DNA of 64,000 bases from NCBI GenBank assembly GCA_023663905.1, contig JAMPGO010000004.1, positions 1 to 64,000 on the forward strand. Reading direction: 5' to 3'. The notes under the pieces were generated by a model. That model was not told the DNA's origin. It saw only the letters and a program-made list of their open reading frames with translations, and did no database searches. This document shows, in pieces, positions 747-40,837 of the stretch. Each line of letters begins with the position of its first letter. Positions within the stretch are counted from its first letter, which is position 1. A program made the translations under genes and the position numbers. Source of the DNA: Ruminococcus flavefaciens. GTDB lineage: Bacteria; Bacillota; Clostridia; Oscillospirales; Ruminococcaceae.

Positions 747-1124
747 TTAACTGAAGAATATGTCAGCCATAGTTTCCAGACCGTATTCTGAAAGCAGGTA
801 CTTTATACCGTTTTCGATACTGTCACGGCTGAAGCCGTTGGTTTCAAGATAATCGTCATCTTTTTCGTTAAGGTACGAGTAGAATACTATTCCGATTAAG
901 AGATTATCCATTGTTTCGTTTTTTACCAGCTCAGACAGTTCACTCACAGCTTCGGCGATATTTCCGTAATCAGCCTTGCGTAACAGATTTCCGGCAGTTT
1001 CCTTTGCTTCCGTGTTCTGGATTAACGATAATGACGGAGTTTCATCATCAACATTAAACAATACTCTGACTAATATTTTTATCATCTGATGAATCTGGCG
1101 CATAATATAATCCTGTTCAAACAT
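747..1124 (-). CDS. DUF6483-like small cytoplasmic protein
   Basis: This 125-residue protein is preceded by a strong AAGGAGG site. It starts MFEQDYIMRQI and is predicted all-helical, with a hydrophobic N-terminal helix and an acidic middle. This opening is what I remember from the DUF6483 family of Firmicutes, which has no known function. It is likely cotranscribed with the small gene upstream (1165-1368), since no separate promoter is visible in the 40-nt gap. There are no catalytic motifs, no signal peptide and no clear membrane segment. The existence of the gene is well supported by ribosome binding site, length and terminator; the family name is less certain. Confidence 0.75.
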   Translation of the reverse strand: MFEQDYIMRQIHQMIKILVRVLFNVDDETPSLSLIQNTEAKETAGNLLRKADYGNIAEAVSELSELVKNETMDNLLIGIVFYSYLNEKDDDYLETNGFSRDSIENGIKYLLSEYGLETMADIFFS

Positions 1125-1427: not shown

Positions 1428-1504
1428 GCGATAAATCTGATTTAATATAGTTGAATACAACAAAAAAATTCGGAAATAATAATTATGATTTTTCATCCAG
1501 GCTA

Positions 1505-1533
1505 TTGACAAACGAAAAAAAATATGATATACT
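1505..1533 (+). promoter_or_regulatory. Promoter of the copy 1 rfbA operon
   Basis: TTGACA (1505-1510), 17-nt spacer, TATACT (1528-1533). The 118-nt leader to the rfbA ATG is purine rich and ends in a GGAGG site (1640-1644). It contains very short overlapping frames (for example an 11-codon one from 1571), which may be leader peptides or chance. The only differences between the two repeat copies inside the repeat are two bases immediately upstream of the -35 box. Confidence 0.85.
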
Positions 1534-1651
1534 TTTAACGAGCAAGCATAGCTGAAAATAGGAAAAAAGAATGGAGACAGAGAGAATTGAGGAAAGAAAA
1601 AGATGAAAAAATAACAGTTATTGCGGGAACGCAAATACTGGAGGTAATAAT

Positions 1652-2533
1652 ATGAAGGGAATAATACTGGCAGGCGGAGCCGGGACGAGGCTGTATCCGT
1701 CCACAATAGCGGTAAGCAAGCAGATGCTGCCGATTTTTGATAAACCACTGATATACTATCCGCTGTCAATGCTGCTTCTGGCGAAAATCAGGGAAATACT
1801 GATAATCTCGACGCCGAGGGACATCGAAGGATTCAGGCAGTTATTGGGAGACGGTTCGGAAATAGGAGTGCATTTCGAGTACGCTGTGCAGGAGACACCG
1901 AGAGGACTTGCGGACGCATTTATAATCGGCGAGGAGTTCATCGGGGACGACAGCGTGTGCCTGGTTTTGGGCGACAACGTATTTTACGGAGCGGCGATGT
2001 CGGATATACTCGAGCAGGCGAAGGAGACGATAAAGGACGGCGGAGCGGCAATTTTCGGGTGTTTTATGAAAAATCCGCAGGAGTTCGGAGTGGTGGAGTT
2101 TGATTCCGAAAAGAAGGTGATTTCGATTGAGGAAAAGCCGAAAAAGCCGAAGTCGAACTACGCAGTGCCGGGACTTTATTTTTACGACAACAACGTTGTT
2201 GAAATCGCAAAGAATGTGAAGCCGTCGGCGAGGGGCGAAATCGAGATTTCGTCGATAAATACGGCATATCTCGAGCAGGGCAGGCTTCACGTAACGCTTA
2301 TGGGAAGAGGCGTGACGTGGTTTGACACAGGCTCGCCGAAAGGGATGTACAAGGCGAGCGGATTTGTTAAAACATTGCAGGAAATGCAGGGATTCTACAT
2401 TTCGTGCATAGAAGAAATCGCCTGGCGCAAGGGATTTATAGACGACGAACAGCTCAGAAAATGCGGCGAAAAGCTGAAAAATACTGAATACGGCAAATAT
2501 CTGCTGTCACTGCTGAACAGCGAGGAGGAGTAA
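1652..2533 (+). CDS. rfbA: Glucose-1-phosphate thymidylyltransferase (copy 1)
   Basis: RmlA/RfbA makes dTDP-glucose from dTTP and glucose-1-phosphate, the first step of dTDP-deoxysugar synthesis in the cytosol. The 293 residues match the usual length. The nucleotide-binding signature AGGAGTRLYP is at residues 7-16, followed by the SKQMLPIFDKP segment with the catalytic-region lysine near residue 23, and later LGDNVFYG, EEKP and the Trp-Phe-Asp-Thr-Gly sugar-binding motif. The start has a GGAGG site 7 nt upstream. rfbB follows after a 2-nt gap and uses a ribosome site inside the end of this gene, so the two are translationally coupled. The protein is identical to copy 2 at 27147. Confidence 0.96.
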   Translation: MKGIILAGGAGTRLYPSTIAVSKQMLPIFDKPLIYYPLSMLLLAKIREILIISTPRDIEGFRQLLGDGSEIGVHFEYAVQETPRGLADAFIIGEEFIGDDSVCLVLGDNVFYGAAMSDILEQAKETIKDGGAAIFGCFMKNPQEFGVVEFDSEKKVISIEEKPKKPKSNYAVPGLYFYDNNVVEIAKNVKPSARGEIEISSINTAYLEQGRLHVTLMGRGVTWFDTGSPKGMYKASGFVKTLQEMQGFYISCIEEIAWRKGFIDDEQLRKCGEKLKNTEYGKYLLSLLNSEEE

Positions 2534-2535
2534 AC

Positions 2536-3564
2536 TTGACGATTTTTGTAACAGGCGGTGCGGGATTCATCGGCGGAAATTTCGTACATTATATGCTCGG
2601 AAAATACCCGAATTACCGCATAGTGTGCCTTGACAAGCTGACGTATGCGGGAAATCTGTCAACGCTGGAGCCTGTGATGAGCAATGCGAATTTCAGGTTC
2701 GTTAAGATAGATATATGCGACAGAACGGCTATTTATAGCCTTTTTGAGGAGGAAAAGCCCGATATTGTCGTGAATTTTGCGGCGGAATCACACGTTGACC
2801 GCTCGATTGAGAACCCCGAAATTTTTCTCCAAACAAACATTCTCGGAACGCAGGTACTTATGGATGCCTGCCGAAAATTCGGGATAAAAAGGTATCATCA
2901 GGTATCGACGGACGAGGTTTACGGCGACCTTCCGCTTGACCGCCCTGACCTTTTCTTCACGGAGGAGACTCCGATTCACACGTCGAGTCCCTACAGTTCG
3001 TCGAAAGCTGGTGCAGACCTGCTTGTGCAGGCATACCACAGGACTTATGGGCTTCCCGTGACGATTTCGAGGTGTTCGAATAACTACGGACCGTACCATT
3101 TTCCCGAGAAGCTGATTCCGCTGATGATTGCGAATGCGCTTGCGGACAAGTCTCTTCCTGTTTATGGCGACGGTCTGAATGTGCGTGACTGGCTGTATGT
3201 TGAGGACCACTGCCGTGCGATAGACCTGATAATCCACGAGGGAAAAATCGGCGAAGTGTACAATGTTGGCGGACATAATGAGATGAAAAATATCGAAATT
3301 GTCAAATTAATCTGCAAGCACCTCGGCAAGCCCGAGAGCCTGATTACGCACGTTGAGGACCGAAAAGGTCACGATATGAGGTACGCAATCGACCCGACGA
3401 AGATTCACAGCGAGCTTGGCTGGCTTCCCGAAACGAAGTTCGAGGACGGCATAAAAAAGACGATTCAGTGGTATCTGGACAACAAATCCTGGTGGGAGGA
3501 GATTATTTCCGGAGAGTACCAGAATTATTACGAAAAAATGTACGGAGGCAGGGAAATTCTCTGA
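2536..3564 (+). CDS. rfbB: dTDP-glucose 4,6-dehydratase (copy 1)
   Basis: RmlB/RfbB converts dTDP-glucose to dTDP-4-keto-6-deoxyglucose. It is an extended SDR of 342 residues: NAD-binding TGGAGFIG at 6-13, the Thr125-Asp126-Glu127 triad of RmlB in STDEVYG, and the catalytic Tyr153-xxx-Lys157 pair. Translation starts at TTG 2536, placed by the GAGGAGGAG site that overlaps the rfbA stop; no ATG fits this spacing. tmk follows with 1 nt between. No rfbC or rfbD is present, so the pathway here should not continue to dTDP-rhamnose but branch at the 4-keto intermediate to the aminotransferase two genes downstream. Confidence 0.96.
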   Translation: MTIFVTGGAGFIGGNFVHYMLGKYPNYRIVCLDKLTYAGNLSTLEPVMSNANFRFVKIDICDRTAIYSLFEEEKPDIVVNFAAESHVDRSIENPEIFLQTNILGTQVLMDACRKFGIKRYHQVSTDEVYGDLPLDRPDLFFTEETPIHTSSPYSSSKAGADLLVQAYHRTYGLPVTISRCSNNYGPYHFPEKLIPLMIANALADKSLPVYGDGLNVRDWLYVEDHCRAIDLIIHEGKIGEVYNVGGHNEMKNIEIVKLICKHLGKPESLITHVEDRKGHDMRYAIDPTKIHSELGWLPETKFEDGIKKTIQWYLDNKSWWEEIISGEYQNYYEKMYGGREIL

Positions 3565-3565
3565 A

Positions 3566-4237
3566 ATGAGCGGAAAATTAATTGTTATCGAAGGACTTGA
3601 CGGAAGCGGAAAGGCGACGCAGGCACAGAGATTGTATGAATATTTAAAAAATGTTTGTGCAAATGTCACAAAAGTTTCGTTTCCCGATTACGAAAGCAAC
3701 TCATCGGCACTTGTTAAGATGTATCTTGCGGGCGAGTTCGGCACGGAGGCTGATTCCGTGAATCCGTATGCCGCCTCGAGTTTCTATGCGGTTGACCGTT
3801 TTGCGAGCTACACGAAGAACTGGAAAGATTTTTACTGCAACGGCGGAATTGTAATATCCGACAGATATACCACCTCAAATGCGGTGCATCAATGTGCAAA
3901 ACTGCCAAAAGAAGAGTGGGACGGATTTATAAAATGGCTGTTCGATTACGAGTACAGGCTTCTCGGGATTCCCGAGCCGTACAGGACGATATATCTGCGT
4001 GTTGACCCCGAAATGAGCCAGGAATTGATGACGAAGCGTTATGAGGGCAACGAATCGAAAAAAGACATTCACGAGGCAGATGTCGATTATCTCAGGCGCT
4101 CACGTCAGGCTGCGGACTACTGTGCCGCTGCGCTCGGCTGGAACGTCGTGGAGTGCGTAAAGGACGGAAAAATGCGTGAAATCGGCGATATTTCGGCGGA
4201 AATCCTGCGCATAGTGTCGGAAGGGGAAATGGAATGA
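3566..4237 (+). CDS. tmk: Thymidylate kinase-like protein (copy 1)
   Basis: Phosphorylates dTMP to dTDP with ATP. The 223 residues have the P-loop GLDGSGKAT at 10-18, the DR pair of the dTMP site at 99-100 followed by YTTSNAVHQ, and an Arg-rich lid region near 145-170 (DVDYLRRSR). It overlaps the next start by 4 nt (ATGA), so all four genes of the unit are coupled. A Tmk inside a dTDP-sugar operon may supply thymidine nucleotides for RfbA; whether it is the only tmk of the cell cannot be seen here. The Asp in the P-loop fits a dTMP kinase better than other NMP kinases. Confidence 0.88.
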   Translation: MSGKLIVIEGLDGSGKATQAQRLYEYLKNVCANVTKVSFPDYESNSSALVKMYLAGEFGTEADSVNPYAASSFYAVDRFASYTKNWKDFYCNGGIVISDRYTTSNAVHQCAKLPKEEWDGFIKWLFDYEYRLLGIPEPYRTIYLRVDPEMSQELMTKRYEGNESKKDIHEADVDYLRRSRQAADYCAAALGWNVVECVKDGKMREIGDISAEILRIVSEGEME

Positions 4238-5340
4238 GCATTTTTGTTACAAGGTCGTCAATGCCCGATTACGAGGAGTACATAGAGGAAATCAAGCCGA
4301 TTTTCGAGAGCCGTCACCTCACGAATATGGGACCGATTTACAAGAAGCTCCAGCACGGCTTGATTGATTATCTCGGTGTTCCGCAGCTGTCGATGTTCGT
4401 GAACGGACATCTTGCGCTCGAGACCGTGTTTCAGGCTATGGGACTGAAAAACAGCGGCGGTGAAGTTATCACCACGCCGTTCACGTTCGTCTCAACGGTT
4501 CACGCAATTTCTAGGAACGGTCTGAAGCCTGTTTTCTGCGATATAAAGCCAAATGACTTCACTATTGACCCTGAAAAGATAGAGGCGCTGATTACCGAAA
4601 AAACGGTTGCGATTGTGCCTGTCCACGTTTACGGTTCAGTCTGTGATGTTGAAAAGATTGGTGAAATTGCACAAAAGCACGGACTTAAGGTTATATACGA
4701 CGCTGCGCACGCATTCGGAGTGCAGTACAAGGGCAGGGGAATCGGCTGTTACGGCGATGCATCGATGTTTTCGTTCCACGCAACGAAGGTGTTCCACACG
4801 ATTGAGGGCGGAGCGGTTGCGTTCAGCGACGAGGCAATCCGTGAGAATATGCACAGCCTGAAAAATTTCGGAATCAAGTCCGAGGATGTGGTTGACGAAA
4901 TCGGCGGAAACGCTAAAATGGACGAGTTCCGTGCGGCTATGGGTATCTGCAATCTCAGGCATATCGGCGAATACATCGAATCCCGTGGGGTCGCATTTAA
5001 AAGGTACAACGAACGGCTTGCGGACGTGAAGGGTATCAGGCTTATGGCTGAACAGAAGGACGTTGTGCCGAATTATGCCTATTATCCCGTTATTTTCGAC
5101 GAAAATGAGTTCGGCGAATCCCGAGACAGCGTGTACGAGCGACTTAAATCGCACGATATTTTTGCAAGAAAGTATTTCTACCCGGCAGTGAACGAGATGG
5201 ATTGCTACAAGATTAACAATCCCGAATCTACTCCGATTGCTGCCGAAATCTCACGCAAAGTCCTTACTCTGCCTATGTACTCGGATTTGTCCGTTGGCGA
5301 TGTTGACCGTATTTGCGACATTATTCTTAAAAAAGCTTAA
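4234..5340 (+). CDS. DegT/DnrJ/EryC1 aminotransferase, VioA-like dTDP-4-keto-6-deoxyhexose transaminase (copy 1)
   Basis: A PLP-dependent sugar aminotransferase of 368 residues. The Schiff-base lysine is Lys185 in SFHATKVFHT, the PLP-ring aspartate is Asp156 in YDAAHA, and the N-terminal half has the usual Asn-Gly substrate loop. With RfbA and RfbB upstream, the expected product is a dTDP-4-amino-4,6-dideoxyhexose (dTDP-viosamine type); 3-amino regiochemistry would normally need a keto-isomerase, which is absent. This is inference from the family and neighbours. This copy ends Lys-Lys-Ala, while copy 2 ends Lys-Lys-Ile-Gln; the identity between the copies stops 12 nt before the stop codon. 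The next gene begins 19 nt downstream. Confidence 0.9.
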   Translation: MSIFVTRSSMPDYEEYIEEIKPIFESRHLTNMGPIYKKLQHGLIDYLGVPQLSMFVNGHLALETVFQAMGLKNSGGEVITTPFTFVSTVHAISRNGLKPVFCDIKPNDFTIDPEKIEALITEKTVAIVPVHVYGSVCDVEKIGEIAQKHGLKVIYDAAHAFGVQYKGRGIGCYGDASMFSFHATKVFHTIEGGAVAFSDEAIRENMHSLKNFGIKSEDVVDEIGGNAKMDEFRAAMGICNLRHIGEYIESRGVAFKRYNERLADVKGIRLMAEQKDVVPNYAYYPVIFDENEFGESRDSVYERLKSHDIFARKYFYPAVNEMDCYKINNPESTPIAAEISRKVLTLPMYSDLSVGDVDRICDIILKKA

Positions 5341-5729: not shown

Positions 5730-6035
5730 ATGGATGATTCAGAGAAGTGCTGTTGCCATTTCAAAAATACGCCGAGAAGCGAGGAGACTTCCCGACAGCT
5801 CAGAAACCGTATTAACCGCATAACGGGTCAGCTGAACGGCATTCAGAAAATGCTTGACGAGAACAGATACTGCGGTGACATCCTCAACCAGATTGCGGCG
5901 GTTGAAAGTGCGTTGCAGAGCGTGGGATATATTATTCTCGAGGAACATATGCAGACCTGCGTGATTGAGGAGATAAAAAACGGCAATACTGATATTGTGA
6001 CTGAAGCGGTTGAGCTTATGAAAAAATTGAAATAG
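5730..6035 (+). CDS. csoR: Copper-sensing transcriptional repressor CsoR
   Basis: A 101-residue all-helical repressor of the CsoR/RcnR family. The Cu(I) ligand set is complete: Cys48, His73 and Cys77, in the family positions (NRYCGDIL and EEHMQTCV). The DNA-facing RNRINRITGQ segment is at 25-34. The N-terminus carries an extra Cys-Cys-Cys-His cluster at 7-10, which could also bind metal. The GGAGG site is 5' of an ATG at 5730. Two operator-like sites in its own promoter point to autoregulation. The expected partner, copA, lies 1.7 kb downstream on the same strand, split from it by an IS110 element. Confidence 0.95.
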   Translation: MDDSEKCCCHFKNTPRSEETSRQLRNRINRITGQLNGIQKMLDENRYCGDILNQIAAVESALQSVGYIILEEHMQTCVIEEIKNGNTDIVTEAVELMKKLK

Positions 6036-7447: not shown

Positions 7448-7449
7448 AA

Positions 7450-7626: not shown

Positions 7627-7726
7627 ATTTTTTGTCCTATCCTCTTTATTTTACCTTATTTTCGTCTGGTTGTCTATTGCTGAGCCGTCTTTGGACTATA
7701 TCATTATTATACTAGGAGTGATTCTG

Positions 7727-24735: not shown

Positions 24736-25455
24736 TTTCAGACCCGACATTATAATATCCCTTGCTTTTACTGCGCCCTCCTTGGACATAGGCGGAATAT
24801 CGGGCAGGGGATATTCTATACCCAGATTCTTGTACTTCGCTTTTGCCATATCGTGGTAGGGCAGAACGTCAAGGGCTTTGAGATTATCAAGATTGGAGAG
24901 AAATTCGCCCAGACGGAAAAGGTCGTCCTCGGAATCGGTAATCCCGGGTACAACTACGTGGCGAATCCACACAGGGATATTCAAATCCCTGAGATGTTCC
25001 GCAAACGCAAGAATATTCTTGTTGTTAACACCTGTAAGCTGTTTGTGCTTATCGCTGTCGATGTGCTTTATATCGAGCATAACAAGGTCGGTATATTTAA
25101 GCACCTCGTCAATTTTTCCGTGATTATCGGGATTATACACAGCTCCTGACGAATCGAGGCAGGTGTGGATTCCTTTGGATTTTGCGAGCGAAAAGAGTTC
25201 CGCTAAAAATTCGGGCTGAGCGAGAGGTTCACCGCCTGTTGCGGTAATTCCGCCCGATTTCAGAAATTCCTTGTAAGAATCATATTCCCTGATTAGTTCC
25301 TCCGCCGTTTTTTCCGTACCCTTTTTAAATTCCCACGTATCGGGATTATGGCAGTATCTGCACCTTATCGGACAGCCCTGAAAGAACACTACAAAACGGA
25401 CTCCCGGACCGTCAACCGTACCGAAGCTTTCGGTTGAATGAATATATCCTATCAT
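24706..25455 (-). CDS. pflA: Pyruvate formate-lyase activating enzyme
   Basis: Radical-SAM glycyl-radical activase, 249 residues. The cluster motif is Cys28-x3-Cys32-x2-Cys35 in GCPIRCRYCHNP; G-T-V-D-G-P-G-V-R is the typical PflA N-terminus, and T-G-G-E-P follows in the SAM-binding region. No pyruvate formate-lyase gene is in the window, so the partner is encoded elsewhere. It overlaps the cca stop by 4 nt and probably shares its promoter. Its 3' end overlaps the convergent DUF1294 gene. Confidence 0.94.
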   Translation of the reverse strand: MIGYIHSTESFGTVDGPGVRFVVFFQGCPIRCRYCHNPDTWEFKKGTEKTAEELIREYDSYKEFLKSGGITATGGEPLAQPEFLAELFSLAKSKGIHTCLDSSGAVYNPDNHGKIDEVLKYTDLVMLDIKHIDSDKHKQLTGVNNKNILAFAEHLRDLNIPVWIRHVVVPGITDSEDDLFRLGEFLSNLDNLKALDVLPYHDMAKAKYKNLGIEYPLPDIPPMSKEGAVKARDIIMSGLKSGLKKQKNQ

Positions 25456-26819
25456 TTTTCAAGCATCTCCTTTGCATAGTCAATAAGTTGGTGATGATTA
25501 TTTTCAAGCCTGCCGTCCATTACCATATCAAGAAGCCGTGCGAGACAATCGCCTATTGCACGTCCGCTGAATCCCAGAGATTTCAGGTCGTTGCCGTTTA
25601 TGGCGAGCTGTGCGAGGGACATACAGCAGTTTTCTGAAATAAGACGGCGGGCTGTTTCTGCGATTTTGTCAATCTCATTGTTTTCATCAAGTACAAAGTC
25701 GTTTTTGGCGGAATTATCCGCCTTTTTTAATTTAAGGAGCAGGAAAAAATTATCCGCACCGATTTTTGAAATCATATGTTTTATTTCATTTACAGGCATA
25801 TTTTTTCTGTCCGAGCCACCGAAATCGAACGTATCGCCGTGCATTGCAACAATCGTGCAGACCGTCTCAATAGTCTTGTTGTCAAATTTAAGACGGCGCA
25901 TTATTTTTTCCGCCATATCGGCACTTACTCCTGCGTGACCCTTGAAATGCCCTCTGCCGTTTGTATCGGGCTTGAAGGTCTGCGGTTTGCCTATATCGTG
26001 GAAAAGCAGGGCAGTACGCAGAATTTCGGTATCAGGCAATCCCGTCGGTATATTGTCAACCGCACGGACGATATGCTCATAAACGTCGTATTTATGGTAT
26101 GGTGAATGCTGGCTGAAATCGAAACATACTCTCATTTCGGGAATAATCTGCCCTATAATTTCACGGTATTTCAGCATAATATCGGCGGAATTGATACCGC
26201 AGATGAGCTTGACAAGCTCGCTCCTTATGCGTTCAGCCGAAACAAATTCAAGCCGTTCTTTAAGTGCAACAGCGGATTCAGCGGTGCGTGAATCTATTTC
26301 AAATCCCAGCACGGAAGCGAATCTTACGGCACGTAAAATGCGGAGAGCGTCCTCCGTAAACCGCTTTTCAGGGTCGCCGACGCACCTTATAATATGGTTT
26401 TCTATGTCGGAAACTCCGTTGAAATAGTCAAAAACATTGCCATTGGAATCAACGGCAATTGCATTCATAGTAAAATCACGACGGGAAGCGTCCTCTTTAA
26501 GGGACGAGGTAAATTCCACGCTGTCGGGTCGCCGAGAATCGCTGTATTCGCCGTCAATTCTGAAAGTCGTAATTTCAAAAGGTTCGTTTTCGTACAGAAC
26601 AGTAACAGTTCCGTGCTTTATTCCTGTGGCGATGACTTTTTCGCCCGGAAAAGTGTCGATAATCTGCTGTGGAAGAGCGTTTGTGGTAATGTCAAAATCG
26701 TGGACTTCACGACCCATAATCATATCACGCACACAGCCGCCGATGATATAAGCCTGAAAACCTGCTGATTCAAGTGCTGTGAGGATGTGCATACATTTTT
26801 TTGTTATATTGAATTTCAT
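25452..26819 (-). CDS. cca: CCA tRNA nucleotidyltransferase
   Basis: Adds or repairs the CCA 3' end of tRNA. 455 residues. The polymerase-beta-type head carries GGCVRD (27-32) and the catalytic Asp41-x-Asp43, then R-R-D-F-T-M-N-A and the E-D-A-L-R-I-L-R-A-V-R-F template motif. An HD domain follows (LLFHDIGKP and later His-Gly-Asp). The long form with HD domain is common in Firmicutes. AAGGTGGTGA precedes the start. Confidence 0.95.
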   Translation of the reverse strand: MKFNITKKCMHILTALESAGFQAYIIGGCVRDMIMGREVHDFDITTNALPQQIIDTFPGEKVIATGIKHGTVTVLYENEPFEITTFRIDGEYSDSRRPDSVEFTSSLKEDASRRDFTMNAIAVDSNGNVFDYFNGVSDIENHIIRCVGDPEKRFTEDALRILRAVRFASVLGFEIDSRTAESAVALKERLEFVSAERIRSELVKLICGINSADIMLKYREIIGQIIPEMRVCFDFSQHSPYHKYDVYEHIVRAVDNIPTGLPDTEILRTALLFHDIGKPQTFKPDTNGRGHFKGHAGVSADMAEKIMRRLKFDNKTIETVCTIVAMHGDTFDFGGSDRKNMPVNEIKHMISKIGADNFFLLLKLKKADNSAKNDFVLDENNEIDKIAETARRLISENCCMSLAQLAINGNDLKSLGFSGRAIGDCLARLLDMVMDGRLENNHHQLIDYAKEMLEK

Positions 26820-26870: not shown

Positions 26871-26999
26871 CAAAAAAATCAAATTTAACATAACTATCCG
26901 AAATGACTTTTTCAGGAATTTTACATCTTTTTACTTTTATTAGGCTAACAAAAAAAAGTAAAAAAATGAAATAATAATTATGATTTTTCATCCAACCTA

Positions 27000-27028
27000 T
27001 TGACAAACGAAAAAAAATATGATATACT
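27000..27028 (+). promoter_or_regulatory. Promoter of the polysaccharide operon (copy 2)
   Basis: TTGACA (27000-27005), 17-nt spacer, TATACT (27023-27028). Only the two bases at 26995-26996, just 5' of the -35 box, differ from copy 1. Confidence 0.85.
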
Positions 27029-27146
27029 TTTAACGAGCAAGCATAGCTGAAAATAGGAAAAAAGAATGGAGACAGAGAGAATTGAGGAAAGAAAAAGATG
27101 AAAAAATAACAGTTATTGCGGGAACGCAAATACTGGAGGTAATAAT

Positions 27147-28028
27147 ATGAAGGGAATAATACTGGCAGGCGGAGCCGGGACGAGGCTGTATCCGTCCACA
27201 ATAGCGGTAAGCAAGCAGATGCTGCCGATTTTTGATAAACCACTGATATACTATCCGCTGTCAATGCTGCTTCTGGCGAAAATCAGGGAAATACTGATAA
27301 TCTCGACGCCGAGGGACATCGAAGGATTCAGGCAGTTATTGGGAGACGGTTCGGAAATAGGAGTGCATTTCGAGTACGCTGTGCAGGAGACACCGAGAGG
27401 ACTTGCGGACGCATTTATAATCGGCGAGGAGTTCATCGGGGACGACAGCGTGTGCCTGGTTTTGGGCGACAACGTATTTTACGGAGCGGCGATGTCGGAT
27501 ATACTCGAGCAGGCGAAGGAGACGATAAAGGACGGCGGAGCGGCAATTTTCGGGTGTTTTATGAAAAATCCGCAGGAGTTCGGAGTGGTGGAGTTTGATT
27601 CCGAAAAGAAGGTGATTTCGATTGAGGAAAAGCCGAAAAAGCCGAAGTCGAACTACGCAGTGCCGGGACTTTATTTTTACGACAACAACGTTGTTGAAAT
27701 CGCAAAGAATGTGAAGCCGTCGGCGAGGGGCGAAATCGAGATTTCGTCGATAAATACGGCATATCTCGAGCAGGGCAGGCTTCACGTAACGCTTATGGGA
27801 AGAGGCGTGACGTGGTTTGACACAGGCTCGCCGAAAGGGATGTACAAGGCGAGCGGATTTGTTAAAACATTGCAGGAAATGCAGGGATTCTACATTTCGT
27901 GCATAGAAGAAATCGCCTGGCGCAAGGGATTTATAGACGACGAACAGCTCAGAAAATGCGGCGAAAAGCTGAAAAATACTGAATACGGCAAATATCTGCT
28001 GTCACTGCTGAACAGCGAGGAGGAGTAA
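27147..28028 (+). CDS. rfbA: Glucose-1-phosphate thymidylyltransferase (copy 2)
   Basis: Identical in protein sequence to the product at 1652 (293 residues, AGGAGTRLYP at 7-16). It is the first gene of the operon that runs to 39767 and should supply dTDP-glucose for the nucleotide sugar used by the downstream phosphoglycosyl transferase or the GT56-like transferase. The start, ribosome site and leader are the same as in copy 1. Confidence 0.96.
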   Translation: MKGIILAGGAGTRLYPSTIAVSKQMLPIFDKPLIYYPLSMLLLAKIREILIISTPRDIEGFRQLLGDGSEIGVHFEYAVQETPRGLADAFIIGEEFIGDDSVCLVLGDNVFYGAAMSDILEQAKETIKDGGAAIFGCFMKNPQEFGVVEFDSEKKVISIEEKPKKPKSNYAVPGLYFYDNNVVEIAKNVKPSARGEIEISSINTAYLEQGRLHVTLMGRGVTWFDTGSPKGMYKASGFVKTLQEMQGFYISCIEEIAWRKGFIDDEQLRKCGEKLKNTEYGKYLLSLLNSEEE

Positions 28029-28030
28029 AC

Positions 28031-29059
28031 TTGACGATTTTTGTAACAGGCGGTGCGGGATTCATCGGCGGAAATTTCGTACATTATATGCTCGGAAAAT
28101 ACCCGAATTACCGCATAGTGTGCCTTGACAAGCTGACGTATGCGGGAAATCTGTCAACGCTGGAGCCTGTGATGAGCAATGCGAATTTCAGGTTCGTTAA
28201 GATAGATATATGCGACAGAACGGCTATTTATAGCCTTTTTGAGGAGGAAAAGCCCGATATTGTCGTGAATTTTGCGGCGGAATCACACGTTGACCGCTCG
28301 ATTGAGAACCCCGAAATTTTTCTCCAAACAAACATTCTCGGAACGCAGGTACTTATGGATGCCTGCCGAAAATTCGGGATAAAAAGGTATCATCAGGTAT
28401 CGACGGACGAGGTTTACGGCGACCTTCCGCTTGACCGCCCTGACCTTTTCTTCACGGAGGAGACTCCGATTCACACGTCGAGTCCCTACAGTTCGTCGAA
28501 AGCTGGTGCAGACCTGCTTGTGCAGGCATACCACAGGACTTATGGGCTTCCCGTGACGATTTCGAGGTGTTCGAATAACTACGGACCGTACCATTTTCCC
28601 GAGAAGCTGATTCCGCTGATGATTGCGAATGCGCTTGCGGACAAGTCTCTTCCTGTTTATGGCGACGGTCTGAATGTGCGTGACTGGCTGTATGTTGAGG
28701 ACCACTGCCGTGCGATAGACCTGATAATCCACGAGGGAAAAATCGGCGAAGTGTACAATGTTGGCGGACATAATGAGATGAAAAATATCGAAATTGTCAA
28801 ATTAATCTGCAAGCACCTCGGCAAGCCCGAGAGCCTGATTACGCACGTTGAGGACCGAAAAGGTCACGATATGAGGTACGCAATCGACCCGACGAAGATT
28901 CACAGCGAGCTTGGCTGGCTTCCCGAAACGAAGTTCGAGGACGGCATAAAAAAGACGATTCAGTGGTATCTGGACAACAAATCCTGGTGGGAGGAGATTA
29001 TTTCCGGAGAGTACCAGAATTATTACGAAAAAATGTACGGAGGCAGGGAAATTCTCTGA
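28031..29059 (+). CDS. rfbB: dTDP-glucose 4,6-dehydratase (copy 2)
   Basis: Identical to the protein at 2536: 342 residues, TTG start, NAD site 6-13, catalytic Thr125/Asp126/Glu127 and Tyr153/Lys157. In this locus too, no rfbC or rfbD follows, which supports 4-amination of the keto sugar instead of rhamnose synthesis. Confidence 0.96.
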   Translation: MTIFVTGGAGFIGGNFVHYMLGKYPNYRIVCLDKLTYAGNLSTLEPVMSNANFRFVKIDICDRTAIYSLFEEEKPDIVVNFAAESHVDRSIENPEIFLQTNILGTQVLMDACRKFGIKRYHQVSTDEVYGDLPLDRPDLFFTEETPIHTSSPYSSSKAGADLLVQAYHRTYGLPVTISRCSNNYGPYHFPEKLIPLMIANALADKSLPVYGDGLNVRDWLYVEDHCRAIDLIIHEGKIGEVYNVGGHNEMKNIEIVKLICKHLGKPESLITHVEDRKGHDMRYAIDPTKIHSELGWLPETKFEDGIKKTIQWYLDNKSWWEEIISGEYQNYYEKMYGGREIL

Positions 29060-29060
29060 A

Positions 29061-29732
29061 ATGAGCGGAAAATTAATTGTTATCGAAGGACTTGACGGAA
29101 GCGGAAAGGCGACGCAGGCACAGAGATTGTATGAATATTTAAAAAATGTTTGTGCAAATGTCACAAAAGTTTCGTTTCCCGATTACGAAAGCAACTCATC
29201 GGCACTTGTTAAGATGTATCTTGCGGGCGAGTTCGGCACGGAGGCTGATTCCGTGAATCCGTATGCCGCCTCGAGTTTCTATGCGGTTGACCGTTTTGCG
29301 AGCTACACGAAGAACTGGAAAGATTTTTACTGCAACGGCGGAATTGTAATATCCGACAGATATACCACCTCAAATGCGGTGCATCAATGTGCAAAACTGC
29401 CAAAAGAAGAGTGGGACGGATTTATAAAATGGCTGTTCGATTACGAGTACAGGCTTCTCGGGATTCCCGAGCCGTACAGGACGATATATCTGCGTGTTGA
29501 CCCCGAAATGAGCCAGGAATTGATGACGAAGCGTTATGAGGGCAACGAATCGAAAAAAGACATTCACGAGGCAGATGTCGATTATCTCAGGCGCTCACGT
29601 CAGGCTGCGGACTACTGTGCCGCTGCGCTCGGCTGGAACGTCGTGGAGTGCGTAAAGGACGGAAAAATGCGTGAAATCGGCGATATTTCGGCGGAAATCC
29701 TGCGCATAGTGTCGGAAGGGGAAATGGAATGA
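29061..29732 (+). CDS. tmk: Thymidylate kinase-like protein (copy 2)
   Basis: Identical to the 223-residue protein at 3566, with P-loop at 10-18 and DR at 99-100. The genome therefore has at least two identical tmk genes, both tied to dTDP-sugar genes, which makes a role in nucleotide-sugar supply more likely than simple housekeeping (inference). Confidence 0.88.
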   Translation: MSGKLIVIEGLDGSGKATQAQRLYEYLKNVCANVTKVSFPDYESNSSALVKMYLAGEFGTEADSVNPYAASSFYAVDRFASYTKNWKDFYCNGGIVISDRYTTSNAVHQCAKLPKEEWDGFIKWLFDYEYRLLGIPEPYRTIYLRVDPEMSQELMTKRYEGNESKKDIHEADVDYLRRSRQAADYCAAALGWNVVECVKDGKMREIGDISAEILRIVSEGEME

Positions 29733-30838
29733 GCATTTTTGTTACAAGGTCGTCAATGCCCGATTACGAGGAGTACATAGAGGAAATCAAGCCGATTTTC
29801 GAGAGCCGTCACCTCACGAATATGGGACCGATTTACAAGAAGCTCCAGCACGGCTTGATTGATTATCTCGGTGTTCCGCAGCTGTCGATGTTCGTGAACG
29901 GACATCTTGCGCTCGAGACCGTGTTTCAGGCTATGGGACTGAAAAACAGCGGCGGTGAAGTTATCACCACGCCGTTCACGTTCGTCTCAACGGTTCACGC
30001 AATTTCTAGGAACGGTCTGAAGCCTGTTTTCTGCGATATAAAGCCAAATGACTTCACTATTGACCCTGAAAAGATAGAGGCGCTGATTACCGAAAAAACG
30101 GTTGCGATTGTGCCTGTCCACGTTTACGGTTCAGTCTGTGATGTTGAAAAGATTGGTGAAATTGCACAAAAGCACGGACTTAAGGTTATATACGACGCTG
30201 CGCACGCATTCGGAGTGCAGTACAAGGGCAGGGGAATCGGCTGTTACGGCGATGCATCGATGTTTTCGTTCCACGCAACGAAGGTGTTCCACACGATTGA
30301 GGGCGGAGCGGTTGCGTTCAGCGACGAGGCAATCCGTGAGAATATGCACAGCCTGAAAAATTTCGGAATCAAGTCCGAGGATGTGGTTGACGAAATCGGC
30401 GGAAACGCTAAAATGGACGAGTTCCGTGCGGCTATGGGTATCTGCAATCTCAGGCATATCGGCGAATACATCGAATCCCGTGGGGTCGCATTTAAAAGGT
30501 ACAACGAACGGCTTGCGGACGTGAAGGGTATCAGGCTTATGGCTGAACAGAAGGACGTTGTGCCGAATTATGCCTATTATCCCGTTATTTTCGACGAAAA
30601 TGAGTTCGGCGAATCCCGAGACAGCGTGTACGAGCGACTTAAATCGCACGATATTTTTGCAAGAAAGTATTTCTACCCGGCAGTGAACGAGATGGATTGC
30701 TACAAGATTAACAATCCCGAATCTACTCCGATTGCTGCCGAAATCTCACGCAAAGTCCTTACTCTGCCTATGTACTCGGATTTGTCCGTTGGCGATGTTG
30801 ACCGTATTTGCGACATTATTCTAAAGAAAATTCAGTAA
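29729..30838 (+). CDS. DegT-family VioA-like sugar aminotransferase (copy 2)
   Basis: 369 residues, identical to the protein at 4234 except for the last residues (Lys-Lys-Ile-Gln here). PLP lysine Lys185, Asp156. The last shared codons before the divergence are synonymous, not identical (CTA AAG here, CTT AAA in copy 1), which suggests that both copies have a natural gene end and that the identity has been imposed up to that point. Predicted product: a dTDP-4-amino-4,6-dideoxyhexose, matching the WecF-like transferase at 35257. Confidence 0.9.
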   Translation: MSIFVTRSSMPDYEEYIEEIKPIFESRHLTNMGPIYKKLQHGLIDYLGVPQLSMFVNGHLALETVFQAMGLKNSGGEVITTPFTFVSTVHAISRNGLKPVFCDIKPNDFTIDPEKIEALITEKTVAIVPVHVYGSVCDVEKIGEIAQKHGLKVIYDAAHAFGVQYKGRGIGCYGDASMFSFHATKVFHTIEGGAVAFSDEAIRENMHSLKNFGIKSEDVVDEIGGNAKMDEFRAAMGICNLRHIGEYIESRGVAFKRYNERLADVKGIRLMAEQKDVVPNYAYYPVIFDENEFGESRDSVYERLKSHDIFARKYFYPAVNEMDCYKINNPESTPIAAEISRKVLTLPMYSDLSVGDVDRICDIILKKIQ

Positions 30839-30877
30839 ATTTTCACATATAAGTATTCAGGATAAAGGATGGTTTTA

Positions 30878-31681
30878 ATGATTACAACTGGAGATTTGAC
30901 AAAAGAAGAGCGCTGGAGAATTGCTGACCGTCTGGCATCTGATGTACTGCCTGTTATCAATCCGACGTTGGATGAGGTAAAGCCCAAAAATTCTTTTTAT
31001 GTTAAATATGTTAAGCGTTTTCTGGACATAATTATCTCGCTGATTGTCCTGATAATCACTCTTCCGTTGAATTTGATAATTGCAGTTATTACTTTTTTTG
31101 ATGTGGGTCGCCCGATTTTTTTCTTTCAGGAACGACTTGGCAAGGGCGGTAAGCTGTTTAAAATCGTGAAATTCAGAAATATGCGTAATACGGTTGACGA
31201 AAACGGCGAATTACTGCCTCCTGCACAGCGTGTTACGAAAATCGGCAAGTTTATGCGCAAGTATTCGCTTGATGAGTTCCTGAATTTCTGGAGCATTCTT
31301 AAAGGCGATATGAGCCTTATAGGTCCTCGTCCGCTTCTTCCTGAGCATTATAACCGCTATAATCAGCGTCATCTTAATCGCCTTGCGGTTCGCCCGGGAC
31401 TGGAATGTCCTCCGCCGACGGTTAAACATCAGATGTTTTCGTGGCAGGACAGGTTTGAGAATGATGTATGGTATGTCGAGAACGCAAGCTTCCTGTTGGA
31501 CTGCAAGCTTGTTATCAACGTAGTCAGGATTGCGCTTGACAGAAAAAGTGCGGCTGCACGTGCGGATGTGTCCCGAGGAATGTTTATGGGCTATAATCTT
31601 GAAGGAACTGCTATCACTCTTGACGAAGTTCCGCAGAAATATCTTGATGAAATCGAGATTGACCGTAAAGTAAACGTCTGA
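30878..31681 (+). CDS. Initiating phosphoglycosyl transferase (bacterial sugar transferase, PglC/WcaJ-like)
   Basis: Transfers a sugar-1-phosphate from a nucleotide sugar to undecaprenyl phosphate, starting glycan assembly at the inner face of the membrane. 267 residues from ATG 30878, chosen for AAAGGA 8 nt upstream; an ATG at 30869 lies inside that site. A single hydrophobic N-terminal segment (about 45-70) is the re-entrant membrane helix of monotopic enzymes. Then come E-R-x-G-x-x-G-K-x-F-x-x-x-K-F-R-x-M, the catalytic Asp-Glu dyad in S-L-D-E-F, and G-D-M-S-L-I-G-P-R-P-L. The sugar used cannot be told. Confidence 0.93.
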   Translation: MITTGDLTKEERWRIADRLASDVLPVINPTLDEVKPKNSFYVKYVKRFLDIIISLIVLIITLPLNLIIAVITFFDVGRPIFFFQERLGKGGKLFKIVKFRNMRNTVDENGELLPPAQRVTKIGKFMRKYSLDEFLNFWSILKGDMSLIGPRPLLPEHYNRYNQRHLNRLAVRPGLECPPPTVKHQMFSWQDRFENDVWYVENASFLLDCKLVINVVRIALDRKSAAARADVSRGMFMGYNLEGTAITLDEVPQKYLDEIEIDRKVNV

Positions 31682-31721
31682 TTCAGACGTGTTTATATAA
31701 AGTTGTATACGAAAGGAAATT

Positions 31722-33023
31722 ATGAATATGACCAAAAAATTCAACGGCAAAAAATTGCTTGTACTGGGTAGCAATGTTGGTGCTACAGACATCGTTCAGT
31801 ACGCTCGTGAAAATGGAGCTTATGTAATAGTTGCGGATTACTTCCCGCCCGAGAAGTCGCCTGCCAAGCGTATCGCTGACGAGGGACTTCTTATCAGCAC
31901 TGCGGAAGTTGACGAGCTTGAGCGCATTGTCCGTGAAAGAAATATTGACGGAATCCTTGCCGGTATCAGCGAATTTAATCTGTTGAACGCAGAGAAAATT
32001 TCTGCGAGAGTTGGTCTGCCTTTTTATTTCACCCGTGAACAGTGGGATATGATAGAAAATAAGGGCAATTTCCGTTCAGTCTGTGAGAAATACGGTGTTC
32101 CCTGCCCGAAAACTTACTTTGTCGGCAGTGAAATTCCCGACGAGCTGTGGGATGAGCTGACATACCCTGTTATGATAAAGCCTGTGGATTCAAGTTCCTC
32201 AAAGGGTGTGTACCGTTGTGAAAACAAGGACGAGGTTCTTGCACGCTACGACGACGCAATTTCCAACTCGGAGTGCAGAAATATCATCATCGAAAAATGC
32301 GTGGTCGGCGATGAATTTTCCGCTCATTATACAATTGCAAACGGCGTTGTATCGCTTGCCAGCGTTGATAACCGCTATCCGATAAAGGTTCACGAGGAGG
32401 ACCAGACTTCCATTCCTGTTGCAAGAATATATCCCTGCATTTATTTTGACGAATATATGGAAAAAGTCCACCCTTCTATGCTTCGTCTTTGCGAGGGACT
32501 GGGTATACAGGACGGTATTCTTTTTATACAGGGCTTGTATGATTCGGCAACCAAGGAATTTAATGTGTTTGAAGCAGGACTCCGAAGTGCAGGAGAAGCG
32601 CCGTACAGATTTATTAAAAAAATCAACAATGTCAATGCTATGCACGTTCTTGTTGACCACGCACTCAGTGTGCCTTCCGATTTTGAATCCGAGAAAGAGG
32701 ATGCTACAATGAAGGGCAAGTGCTGTGGAATTGTTTCATTTGTTACAAAGGGCGGTATTGTCGGAAAAATTGAGGGTCTGGAGGAAGCTACATCAGAACT
32801 TCCGAGCGTTGTGGAATACGAATGCCGTTATCCTGTCGGCTCTGAAACTCCGAACGGCAGAACGCTCCGTCAGCTTATGATTCGCTTTGTTATGATTTGC
32901 GAAAGCCGTGAGCAGATGGCAAAGGACATTGAGTATCTCAATTCCCATATTACCGTTCTGAACGACAAGGGCGAGGATATGGTTCTTAAAATGAATCCTT
33001 CGAGAGTTTTCGGCACAGAATAA
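31722..33023 (+). CDS. ATP-grasp ligase in polysaccharide locus (first of two)
   Basis: 433 residues. The N-terminal pre-ATP-grasp Rossmann-like part starts K-K-L-L-V-L-G-S-N-V-G-A; the ATP-grasp core follows with P-V-M-I-K-P (ATP-binding Lys), S-S-S-K-G-V near 155-165, and later metal-site acidic residues. The family resembles PurK, BioC-like biotin carboxylases and carbamoyl-phosphate synthase-like proteins, which join a carboxylate to an amine through an acyl phosphate. In a sugar locus with an amino sugar, amide formation to an amino acid is plausible. Not assigned further. Start: ATG 31722 or 31728; both share the AAAGGA site. Confidence 0.82.
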   Translation: MNMTKKFNGKKLLVLGSNVGATDIVQYARENGAYVIVADYFPPEKSPAKRIADEGLLISTAEVDELERIVRERNIDGILAGISEFNLLNAEKISARVGLPFYFTREQWDMIENKGNFRSVCEKYGVPCPKTYFVGSEIPDELWDELTYPVMIKPVDSSSSKGVYRCENKDEVLARYDDAISNSECRNIIIEKCVVGDEFSAHYTIANGVVSLASVDNRYPIKVHEEDQTSIPVARIYPCIYFDEYMEKVHPSMLRLCEGLGIQDGILFIQGLYDSATKEFNVFEAGLRSAGEAPYRFIKKINNVNAMHVLVDHALSVPSDFESEKEDATMKGKCCGIVSFVTKGGIVGKIEGLEEATSELPSVVEYECRYPVGSETPNGRTLRQLMIRFVMICESREQMAKDIEYLNSHITVLNDKGEDMVLKMNPSRVFGTE

Positions 33024-33037
33024 TTATGGAGAGAGAT

Positions 33038-33925
33038 ATGAAAAAAATTGCAATTACAGGTGCAGGCGGATTTCTCGGAACTGCACTTATGAATAGACTT
33101 GTAGTTAGAACAGATGTTCTTGTTTATGCTTTTTCGTTCGATTTTGAAAGAAGCCGTGAGACTTTTGTCAGGGGCGAAAATATAATCCCTGTTGATAACA
33201 GCGAGGTCGGTTCGTTCGATTTTTCGGACATAGACGTTGTAATTAACTGTGCGTTCCCACGAAATGCGGCGAGCGATATAATTGCCGACGGTCTTGATTT
33301 TATGGCTGAGGTACTGCGAAAATCAGCCGTTTCAGGAGCTGTGATTAACATTTCTTCGCAGTCCGTCTATAATACCCACCGCACCGAGCCTGCAAAGGAG
33401 ACTGACAAGTGCTGTCTTGAAACGAAGTACGCTGTCGGAAAATACGCTTCTGAGCTGATGAACAACACGCTGTGCGGTAATATTCCGCATACAAATATCC
33501 GTATGGCGAGCCTTATAGGACCTAAATTCGACCAGCGTGTTACAAACAAGCTCGTGGAAACAGCTCTTAAAACAGGCAAGCTGACGGTAAACGACGATAA
33601 TCAGTTTTTCGGCTATCTCGATATCGAGGACGCTGTGAGCGGTATTCTCAGTCTGCTGGAAATTCCTGCCGAGAACTGGAAATCGGTTTACAATCTCGGC
33701 GATTCGGCAACCTACTCCCTTAAGATGATTGCGGAGACGATTGCGGAAGTTGTGTACGAAGAATGCGGAAAAACCGTTGAAATCAGCCTGCAACCTGCCG
33801 ACCTCACTCTCAATTCCGCACTTGACGGCAGTCTGCTTGAAGCCGATACAGGATTCAGACCGTCTGTTGCTTTTAAGCAGAGCATACAGCGCATAGTGTA
33901 TGAAAAACTTCAGAAAAACTGTTAA
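33038..33925 (+). CDS. NAD-dependent epimerase/dehydratase (extended SDR)
   Basis: 295 residues from ATG 33038, chosen because GGAG lies 6 nt upstream; an earlier ATG (33026) overlaps that site. NAD(P) site I-A-I-T-G-A-G-G-F-L-G at the N-terminus. The catalytic Ser is in INISSQSVY; the Tyr of Y-x-x-x-K is seen in K-Y-A-V-G-K-Y, where the pair is Tyr-Ala-Val-Gly-Lys. It would modify a nucleotide sugar in the locus: epimerization or 4-keto reduction. The substrate is not visible. Confidence 0.82.
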   Translation: MKKIAITGAGGFLGTALMNRLVVRTDVLVYAFSFDFERSRETFVRGENIIPVDNSEVGSFDFSDIDVVINCAFPRNAASDIIADGLDFMAEVLRKSAVSGAVINISSQSVYNTHRTEPAKETDKCCLETKYAVGKYASELMNNTLCGNIPHTNIRMASLIGPKFDQRVTNKLVETALKTGKLTVNDDNQFFGYLDIEDAVSGILSLLEIPAENWKSVYNLGDSATYSLKMIAETIAEVVYEECGKTVEISLQPADLTLNSALDGSLLEADTGFRPSVAFKQSIQRIVYEKLQKNC

Positions 33926-33957
33926 ATGCCATTCCGTTATGTCTGAGGAGGTGCTTT

Positions 33958-35232
33958 ATGCAGGCTTTAATTGAACGTCTGACCAACAAGCCGAAGGGAT
34001 TCCGTCTCAACACGTTTCTTAACATTGCGTGCGTACTTTGGGTTAGCAATACGGCTGTAAGAATGATGATTGCAAAGGTACTGTCTTTCGGCGGTTTACA
34101 GCAATATGCGGAATATGTACTGACAGCGCTGATATATATTCCGCTGATATTGTACGTTTTCATTTCGCATAAATTAATCGGCAGGCGGTTTATATGCTTT
34201 CTGTCAGCCTGCGCCCTGTTTTTCGGTATCACGTATTTTTTCCACCCCGAGTACAAGCACTGGTTTACCCGAGATTCATTCGGAATATGGGATACAATTT
34301 TTCGTCCAGATAAAGGAGCAATCTGGGCTTTTTTGATGATTGAAATTGTCGCCGACGAAAAAGAGCTTTGGAAAAACTTCAAGGTATCAGCAGGAATCAC
34401 ATTCTTCTACAACCTATATATGTGGGTCAAGGCGAAAAGGGTCGGCTACTGGATATACGTCGGGGCGTCGGGACTGGAGGAGAAGCGACAGTATTCCCTT
34501 GATTTCGGCTACAGTATGATGTTTGTCCTGCTTGTCGCCGTGTTCTGCTATATGTTTGAGCGGAAACGCTGGCAGCTGCTTTTCACGATACTTGTGTTCC
34601 TGCTTATCCTCGATTCAAGTTCCCGTGGAGCTTTTGCGGTCGTTCTTGTTGCGGCGGCACTTGTGTTAATCGACAGCAGGTGGAAAATGTCTAAAAAAGT
34701 CAGAAACGTTACCGTAATCGCTATAGCAGGTGGATTGGTGCTTCTGCTGTGGAAACATCTCCTGCGGTTGTTGATTAGCGTTATGAAGAAGTTCTCAATC
34801 AATTCAAGAACGCTGACAATGCTTGTCAACGGCGAAATGACTGACGATAACGGACGAGATATTATTCACAAGATTATTCTGAAAAGGATATGGCAGAAGC
34901 CGTTGACAGGTTACGGCGCATACGGCGACCGCCAGTTTATCGGTCCGAGATTCAACTGGGGATATTCGCACAGCATATTATACGAAATGTGGGCGGATTT
35001 CGGCGTAATTCTTGGTACGCTGTTTCTTGGTCTGCTGGTATTTCTTGCAATAAGGACGGTTCTGACTGAAAAAAACCGCACGAAAAATGCCATTTTCATA
35101 ATCGTTCTGGCACTCGGCTCACGACTGGCTTTTTCAAATACTTTCTGGGGCGACCCGTATTTTTGGATGATGGTAGCCCTTATAATTAAATGGCCTGTAA
35201 AATCACGCATTAAATTTCAGTATGAGATTTAA
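33958..35232 (+). CDS. Wzy-like O-antigen/polysaccharide polymerase or ligase
   Basis: 424 residues, very hydrophobic, about ten membrane helices, with a large outside loop before the last helices containing G-Y-G-A-Y-G-D and H-S-I-L-Y-E-M-W-A-D-F-G. That H-S/N-x-x-L-x-x-x-x-x-x-x-G signature and the Arg-rich S-S-S-R-G-A segment are typical of the Wzy_C / O-antigen ligase superfamily. With a Wzx flippase three genes on, polymerase is the best call. Start ATG with GGAGGTG site. Placement 32 nt after the SDR gene. Confidence 0.82.
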   Translation: MQALIERLTNKPKGFRLNTFLNIACVLWVSNTAVRMMIAKVLSFGGLQQYAEYVLTALIYIPLILYVFISHKLIGRRFICFLSACALFFGITYFFHPEYKHWFTRDSFGIWDTIFRPDKGAIWAFLMIEIVADEKELWKNFKVSAGITFFYNLYMWVKAKRVGYWIYVGASGLEEKRQYSLDFGYSMMFVLLVAVFCYMFERKRWQLLFTILVFLLILDSSSRGAFAVVLVAAALVLIDSRWKMSKKVRNVTVIAIAGGLVLLLWKHLLRLLISVMKKFSINSRTLTMLVNGEMTDDNGRDIIHKIILKRIWQKPLTGYGAYGDRQFIGPRFNWGYSHSILYEMWADFGVILGTLFLGLLVFLAIRTVLTEKNRTKNAIFIIVLALGSRLAFSNTFWGDPYFWMMVALIIKWPVKSRIKFQYEI

Positions 35233-35256
35233 AATGACATAAGAGGAGGAAGTGTA

Positions 35257-36354
35257 TTGTTTCTTCATATTCTTGGTGCAGAATCAATGTTTACAAAAGG
35301 TTTTTTCAGAATGCTCAGCAACGATTTTAATCCGTCGGAGCATACCTTTGTCGGACGTTACCCTGACGAGGCAAAATACGCTGAAATAGATCAATGTAAA
35401 ATAGTCCAGTCAAGGTCGCCCGCAATGTTTTTCAGCCTTTACAAAGCCGACCATATCATTGTTCACGGACTTTTCAATAAGGCGGTAATTCTTGCCCTGT
35501 TTCTCCAGCCGTGGCTTGTTAAAAAATGTAACTGGGTTGTGTTCGGAGCTGATATTTATTCGCACAAAAAAGCCAATCCGAGCTTTACGGACAGGCTTTT
35601 TGAAAAGATGAAGATGAAAATCGCACCGAAATTCCCATATATATCTACTTTTTCCGACGGCGACTGGGCATTGGTTCAGGAATGGTATGGTGCAAAGGGC
35701 AAGAATCTCAAGGTATCGTATCCGCTTGCAGGCTGTAACAAGGAGCTTGTTAACGAGCTTCAGAGTGTGCAGAAATCGGACGATTCAATCCACATAGTCA
35801 TCGGAAACAGTGCGACTGCCACAAATCAGCACATTGAAGCTCTGGACTGGCTTGCACGCTTTAAGGACGAGAATATCAGAATACATCTTCCGCTGAATTA
35901 CGGTCTCGGCGATTACAAAGCCTATGCCAAAAAAGTAACCGACTATGCGGTGAAGATTTTCGGCGAGGAAAAAGTTGTACCGCTGACGGAAAAGCTGTCG
36001 GGCGAGGAGTATCTCAGATACCTGAACTGTATGGACGTGGGCTTGTTCAACAACAACAGACAGCAGGCAATGGGCAATATTACACAGGCTGTACTTTGCG
36101 GTGCGAAAGTCTATATCCGCAAGGATACGAATATGTGGGAGCATTACCGCAAGCTTGGCTGTAATCTCTATGATATTGAGGAAATCAGGCAGATGAAGTC
36201 TGTTGACGAGCTGGTTGAAGAGAATCCCGAGCAGAAAAAATCCAACCGTCTGGCGATGTCTGCCCGTCAGGATATGGGGCTTAAAATCAGCATATGGAAG
36301 AATATTTTCGATACGATGTCGGGCAAATCTCAGGAAAGGGCGGATAAAGGATGA
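35257..36354 (+). CDS. WecF-like (GT56) 4-amino-4-deoxysugar transferase
   Basis: 365 residues, soluble. It resembles the Fuc4NAc transferase family: N-terminal L-H-I-L-G, the central I-G-N-S-A-T-A-x-N-x-H-I-E-A-L block, L-P-L-N-Y-G, and R-Q-Q-A-M-G-N near 275. WecF uses dTDP-4-acetamido-4,6-dideoxygalactose in the enterobacterial common antigen pathway, a good match to the predicted dTDP-4-amino sugar of the operon. The start is TTG at 35257 with AGGAGGA 6 nt upstream. The next gene overlaps by 4 nt. It is the only recognisable glycosyltransferase beside the initiating enzyme, so the repeat unit may be short. Confidence 0.82.
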   Translation: MFLHILGAESMFTKGFFRMLSNDFNPSEHTFVGRYPDEAKYAEIDQCKIVQSRSPAMFFSLYKADHIIVHGLFNKAVILALFLQPWLVKKCNWVVFGADIYSHKKANPSFTDRLFEKMKMKIAPKFPYISTFSDGDWALVQEWYGAKGKNLKVSYPLAGCNKELVNELQSVQKSDDSIHIVIGNSATATNQHIEALDWLARFKDENIRIHLPLNYGLGDYKAYAKKVTDYAVKIFGEEKVVPLTEKLSGEEYLRYLNCMDVGLFNNNRQQAMGNITQAVLCGAKVYIRKDTNMWEHYRKLGCNLYDIEEIRQMKSVDELVEENPEQKKSNRLAMSARQDMGLKISIWKNIFDTMSGKSQERADKG

Positions 36355-37766: not shown

Positions 37767-37788
37767 ACAGAAAGGAAGAGTCAGAAAA

Positions 37789-40816: not shown

Positions 40817-40837
40817 TAACGTCATCTCCGTAATTTA

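Follow-up and report, generated by a model that had tools for sequence, protein, structure and literature searches.

Two near-identical copies of a putative dTDP-amino-sugar operon with a thymidylate kinase homologue in a draft genome of Ruminococcus flavefaciens

How can two copies of a four-gene operon within one contig of a bacterial draft genome agree at every base except two adjacent ones close to one edge? The case lies in a 64,000-nucleotide stretch of Ruminococcus flavefaciens DNA (hereafter the window), consisting of bases 1–64000 of a 76109-bp contig from a draft of 2.22 Mb in 71 contigs that is 82% complete. The original prediction placed a 3.86 kb direct repeat at 1473..5327 and 26968–30822, and a base-by-base alignment returned exactly these coordinates, with direct copies of 3855 bp that are identical at 3853 of the 3855 positions. 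The sole mismatches form one adjacent pair (1500/26995, G/A; 1501/26996, G/C) and lie, as had been read by eye, beside the –35 box, three bases ahead of the TTGACA beginning at 1505; the predicted 27-bp block of identity to their left is likewise present. From 1502 to 5327 (3826 bp) there are zero differences between the copies, giving by the rule of three a divergence below ~0.08%. A near-identity of 3.8 kb is far beyond chance. The features of the two copies and their surroundings are collected in Table 1.

Table 1. Features of the repeat pair and its neighborhood, in window coordinates.
Feature	Position	Copy 2 position	Strand	Basis or remark
pPIWI_RE protein tail, cut by contig end	14-571		+	PF13032; PADLOC PprPIWI positions 571-710 of 718
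DUF6483 gene, left of copy 1, divergent	747..1124		-	PF20092; matches in 26/59 other genus genomes
Copy 1 of repeat: promoter-like site, leader, four genes	1473..5327		+	apparently the extra, derived copy
27-bp block identical in both copies, left of mismatch pair	1473..1499		.	
Mismatch pair of repeat	1500..1501	26995-26996	.	GG in copy 1, AC in copy 2
Promoter-like site TTGACA-17-TATACT	1505..1533	add 25495	+	consensus scan 11/12; alone no evidence of function
rmlA/rfbA, glucose-1-phosphate thymidylyltransferase	1652..2533	27147-28028	+	TIGR01207 448.4 bits, cut-off 360.65
rmlB/rfbB, dTDP-glucose 4,6-dehydratase	2536..3564	28031-29059	+	TIGR01181 498.9 bits, cut-off 365.1
Thymidylate (dTMP) kinase homologue	3566..4237	29061-29732	+	PF02223 71.3 bits, cut-off 27
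DegT/DnrJ/EryC1/StrS sugar aminotransferase	4234..5340	29729-30838	+	PF01041 328.6 bits; last codons beyond repeat
77-aa gene, right of copy 1, 19 bp behind DegT stop codon	5360..5593		+	matches in 44/59 other genus genomes; no Pfam family
CsoR-type repressor gene csoR, right of 77-aa gene	5730-6035			
IS110-type transposase, two reading frames, between csoR and copA	6159-7474		-	PF01548, PF02371; single copy in draft
copA, heavy-metal ATPase gene	7598-10255			
tRNA nucleotidyltransferase-like gene, left of copy 2, divergent	25452..26819		-	PF01743 and related domains; matches in 55/59 other genus genomes
Copy 2 of repeat, heads polysaccharide gene cluster		26968..30822	+	apparently the resident type
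Polysaccharide cluster behind copy 2	30869..39767		+	Bac_transf sugar transferase, ATP-grasp, epimerase, Wzy-like, Fuc4NAc-transferase-like (PF07429), Wzx-like, PALP enzyme, PylC-like ATP-grasp

The repeat would amount to one whole transcription unit, running from the promoter-like site and a leader through rmlA, rmlB and the dTMP kinase gene to the gene of the DegT aminotransferase. RmlA, RmlB and a sugar aminotransferase occur together in it, the combination of families by which dTDP-4-amino-4,6-dideoxysugar operons are recognized, and judging from these families the product should be a dTDP-4-amino-4,6-dideoxyhexose. Fuc4N is a plausible sugar because the genes behind copy 2 include the relative of TDP-Fuc4NAc transferases. 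WecE and VioA are examples of aminotransferases in known RmlA/RmlB and DegT modules for such sugars. The operon shares with those modules the three enzyme families, their arrangement in one operon and the position beside Wzx/Wzy-type polysaccharide genes, but differs from them in having a dTMP kinase gene built in and in its DegT protein, for which the best NCBIfam model, of DesI type, and every other specific NCBIfam model listed scored below cut-off. Over positions 1504–1553, the promoter and early leader resemble C66:15311-15357, a segment of another contig (82%), and the likeness covers GCATAGCT behind the –10 box. No Rfam family reached the gathering score in the leader or elsewhere in the window.

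The four genes were thus described correctly, but calling all of them dTDP-amino-sugar genes went too far for one, the thymidylate kinase homologue, which is not a sugar-specific enzyme. This protein scored below the NCBIfam equivalog cut-offs (112.1 against 193 and 65.3 against 83.25); its nearest solved structures are thymidylate kinases, and its best named matches come from Ruminococcus and Oscillospiraceae MAGs. A Pfam search of the whole draft, which detected the family in 13 of 14 control genomes, found no thymidylate kinase beyond the two repeat copies; given the completeness of the draft, a further kinase gene may simply be missing from it. Apart from the two copies, the draft holds no rmlB relative above 29% identity. 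Among the literature matches listed, the term thymidylate kinase was absent, and we do not claim that the linkage is unpublished.

Comparison with other genomes of the genus shows in which of the two places the operon usually resides. A close DegT homologue (E ≤ 1e-155) occurs in 6 of 125 genomes including the source, and the five carriers among the 124 others have one match each. A Bac_transf gene directly follows DegT in G066 and G102 and comes after one ATP-grasp gene in G131 and G030, while in G076 an ATP-grasp gene stands behind DegT at the contig end. Genes of the cluster behind copy 2 have homologues behind DegT in G102, where the order is that of copy 2 (DegT, Bac_transf, ATP-grasp, epimerase) until the contig ends, and in G131, which keeps this order up to Wzx and has an additional ATP-grasp gene after DegT. 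G066 and G030 (rmlA-rmlB-tmk-degT) and G102, with its rmlA cut by the contig end, match the repeat in content and order and have polysaccharide genes next to it as in copy 2, but each has only one operon copy that we could find and none away from the polysaccharide cluster. Of 59 other genomes, 31 have the kinase once each, against two matches in the source genome; in G076 the cluster holds no kinase match, and the kinase gene lies on another contig. On contig 10 of G001 (L218, L223), rmlA and a kinase gene stand together, with rmlB (91% identical protein) ~21 kb off on the same contig.

Two copies in the assembly, their content and the resident type in the relatives are observed directly. Because the single DegT of the carriers precedes polysaccharide genes and the kinase is single elsewhere, copy 2 is taken as the resident type and copy 1 as the extra, and by this comparison copy 1 looks like a lineage-specific addition. 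The same pair, sought in relatives to check the proposed age of the duplicates, did not turn up: no second copy of the operon was found in any of the five carriers, which are distant drafts of 60 to 460 contigs. The relatives are nearly all multi-contig drafts in which identical copies could collapse, and single copies there are therefore weak evidence. Third positions at identical residues are 34–56% identical between the source and the five carriers over the genes compared (41–52% for the four operon genes; epimerase of G030 left out), so that the relatives are near synonymous saturation and cannot date the copies. We also considered the repeat borders as boundaries of exchanged modules and dropped the idea: DegT is nearest to G066 (82%) and three genes behind it to G102 (72–77%), but rmlB is about equally close to both (86% for G066, 87% for G102), leaving no clear switch.

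Copy 1, which begins 1472 bp from the contig end, lies in a different setting, in which it would be wedged, as an extra gained in this lineage, between the DUF6483 gene and the 77-aa gene. The gene tail at the contig end is probably a defense gene. Matches of 26–59 bp to positions 645–703, 85–96% identical, occur at one place in G027 and two in G073, and no tRNA was found in the window. The genome G073 ranks first among the matches of the 77-aa gene (75%) and of the tRNA nucleotidyltransferase (69%) and shares first place for DUF6483 (70%). Its 77-aa gene, csoR and copA follow each other in the same order as right of copy 1, and it has two IS110-type reading frames 13 bp apart. The repeat is absent from the ~150 bp ahead of the G073 77-aa gene, which is all that the contig holds there, and from 13 kb upstream of the tRNA nucleotidyltransferase gene. 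The contig that bears the 77-aa gene of G073 starts beside a perfect 11-bp hairpin, read by eye (CATGTTCGAAT; L235, 11–41). In the window, the consensus scan listed no promoter-like site in the gap that separates the 77-aa gene from copy 1, which makes read-through from the operon plausible, and the 77-aa gene may thus ride on the copy 1 transcript. A displaced promoter of the 77-aa gene, suggested by eye from the G073 sequence, was considered and rejected, as the scan of the upstream sequence in G073 lists no plus-strand site wholly ahead of the gene.

The nearness of copy 1 to a contig end in a draft genome raises the suspicion of a wrong layout, with either a single operon or an extra copy put at the end by a misjoin or the resolution of a graph loop. 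The two neighbors of copy 1 are indeed unlinked in relatives: homologues of the DUF6483 and 77-aa genes lie on separate contigs in all seven genomes where DUF6483 is matched at 60% identity or more (one match partial), a count in which six of the seven 77-aa homologues are only 37–40% identical and may be paralogues. We nevertheless regard a layout error as improbable. Four distinct flanks join the repeat, the mismatch pair marks two distinct left arms, and the ordinary chromosomal genes between the copies, such as the tRNA nucleotidyltransferase recognized by Pfam, make the given linear order the simplest path. The same stretch presumably also carries lysS- and greA-like genes.

Transposition of the repeat unit was examined as a route between the two places and rejected, as terminal inverted repeats beyond chance, an exact target duplication and an internal transposase are all lacking. 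The longest exact inverted word between the 60-bp ends of the unit is 6, a length reached in 315 of 500 shuffles, and the window has no inverted repeats of at least 60 nt. Neither copy has an exact target duplication of 2–15 bp at its borders; an 8-bp word, TTAATATA, does recur around copy 1, but close to the borders and not directly at them. The IS110-type genes are 0.8 kb away from copy 1, in a region present only once in the draft.

We favor the explanation, at a probability of about 0.48, that both sequences stem from one recent act of copying, which was either the duplication itself or an ectopic recombination event that replaced an older copy. It agrees with the near-identity throughout, unless this was imposed by the assembler, and with the single copies in five of five carriers, albeit distant drafts. 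The lack of the repeat at the G073 sites described above and the separate contigs of the DUF6483 and 77-aa homologues are counted in its favor as well. As the relatives are distant, the word recent rests on the identity itself, which the assembler may have imposed. Under this explanation copy 2 would be the resident at the head of a surface-polysaccharide cluster, where by its enzyme families it would make dTDP-4-amino-4,6-dideoxyhexose from glucose-1-phosphate and dTTP, the operon kinase helping the dTTP supply. The age of the copies, the copying route and any dosage effect we infer.

Two details at the borders are not predicted by a plain fresh copy. At the left, the copies differ only in a pair of neighboring bases 27 bp from the edge; for one random later change, the probability of landing within 29 bp of either repeat end is ~0.015. 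At the right, the reading frame continues past the border as CTT AAA AAA GCT TAA in copy 1 and CTA AAG AAA ATT CAG TAA in copy 2, and two of the seven bases just past the border differ. The original prediction saw here the same amino acids in different codons, which is true of less than it seemed: both proteins continue with LKK, but any codon that begins with the CT inside the repeat encodes L, and of the two K codons one is shared and just one differs. AAR AAR follows at 39 of 5,092 intergenic positions, our estimate of the chance of a lysine tail past the border; both odds were computed after the pattern had been seen and are generous to it.

These edges had been taken as something that a fresh cut-and-paste duplication does not leave, and as the trace of older duplicates that recurrent gene conversion has kept identical as far as their homology extends. 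The mismatch with its 27-bp island and the differing codon for the same lysine do favor conversion over a plain copy, and the pattern is somewhat unlikely under one clean recent copy; assembler merging, however, would give it as well. The DegT protein ends in LKK in G102, in LK in G066 and otherwise in the other three carriers, so that a tail ancestral to both copies is possible though not general, a partial support from the relatives set against four of five carriers without the LKK end. Duplicated operons of prokaryotes are known to undergo concerted evolution. In the Nitrosomonadales, amoCAB, haoAB and cycAB are duplicated operons with highly similar copies within one genome, and amoCAB duplicates are described at the same places in several species, whereby the authors rule out recent duplication and accept gene conversion (PMC6053082). 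The present copies resemble those described there in their high similarity within one genome but differ in that only a single genome is known to have the second copy, and two copies at shared syntenic places in several species were not seen. Beyond, at most, the LKK at the right edge, the flanks have no further homology: in six flank comparisons the likeness does not exceed that of shuffled sequence (the local score seen is attained in 29–94 of 200 shuffles), leaving nothing outside the borders with which the synonymous divergence inside could be compared, as had been proposed. Two adjoining genes with VanY and Big_2 domains at 39809–42274 on the minus strand form a further duplicate pair in the window. 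Their identity, taken per 100 columns where 50 or more positions are aligned, ranges from 39 to 89% and climbs from ~40% on the 5′ side of the part they share to 89% close to its 3′ end. That this pair has not been homogenized speaks weakly against conversion, which need not act everywhere. On balance we hold conversion to be a credible but rather unlikely explanation of the two operons.

The same edges could also be a product of the assembly. No SSU rRNA was found in the draft, by a search that finds one in 9 of 14 control genomes and so misses some; its absence is usual for short-read MAGs, and a 3.8-kb repeat normally breaks a short-read contig. In a k-mer graph of the sequence, the long repeated node is exactly 1502–5327 at each k of 29, 31, 55, 77, 99, 127 and 141, and at k = 27 the 27-bp island becomes a separate node. 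The unique left arms end with the two mismatching bases, and an island of 27 bp cannot close a bubble at k ≥ 29. As the GG/AC pair lies in the unique arms outside the repeated node, only differences outside the node could survive bubble merging. The draft might thus contain two real, slightly different copies whose internal differences were removed, leaving those within one k-mer of the edges, and graph assemblers such as IDBA-UD and MEGAHIT are described to merge or remove bubbles (PMC7299287). This account is in our view unlikely: both copies are within one contig without N, for which long reads, long inserts or loop resolution would be needed, and the difference in two of seven bases at the right edge exceeds what merging should tolerate throughout. 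Assembler merging and gene conversion predict the same edge pattern, and the sequence alone cannot separate them.

A functional reason for the two copies is conceivable. The draft's only detectable dTMP kinase gene stands in a surface-sugar operon, and this essential nucleotide enzyme and the sugar supply might be dosage-coupled, the two copies being kept identical by ongoing recombination; we consider this a long shot. Direct copies 25 kb apart would likewise permit reversible amplification of the intervening segment.

Near-perfect duplication of an operon is fairly ordinary in kind, and whichever reading holds, the finding is modest and local. An identity created by the assembler would be a useful warning that, in draft genomes, differences confined to the edges of repeats imitate gene conversion. 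Should both copies be real and identical, they show cleanly how a whole sugar operon was copied from a polysaccharide cluster to a second place, along with a dTMP kinase gene that may be the only one in the cell.
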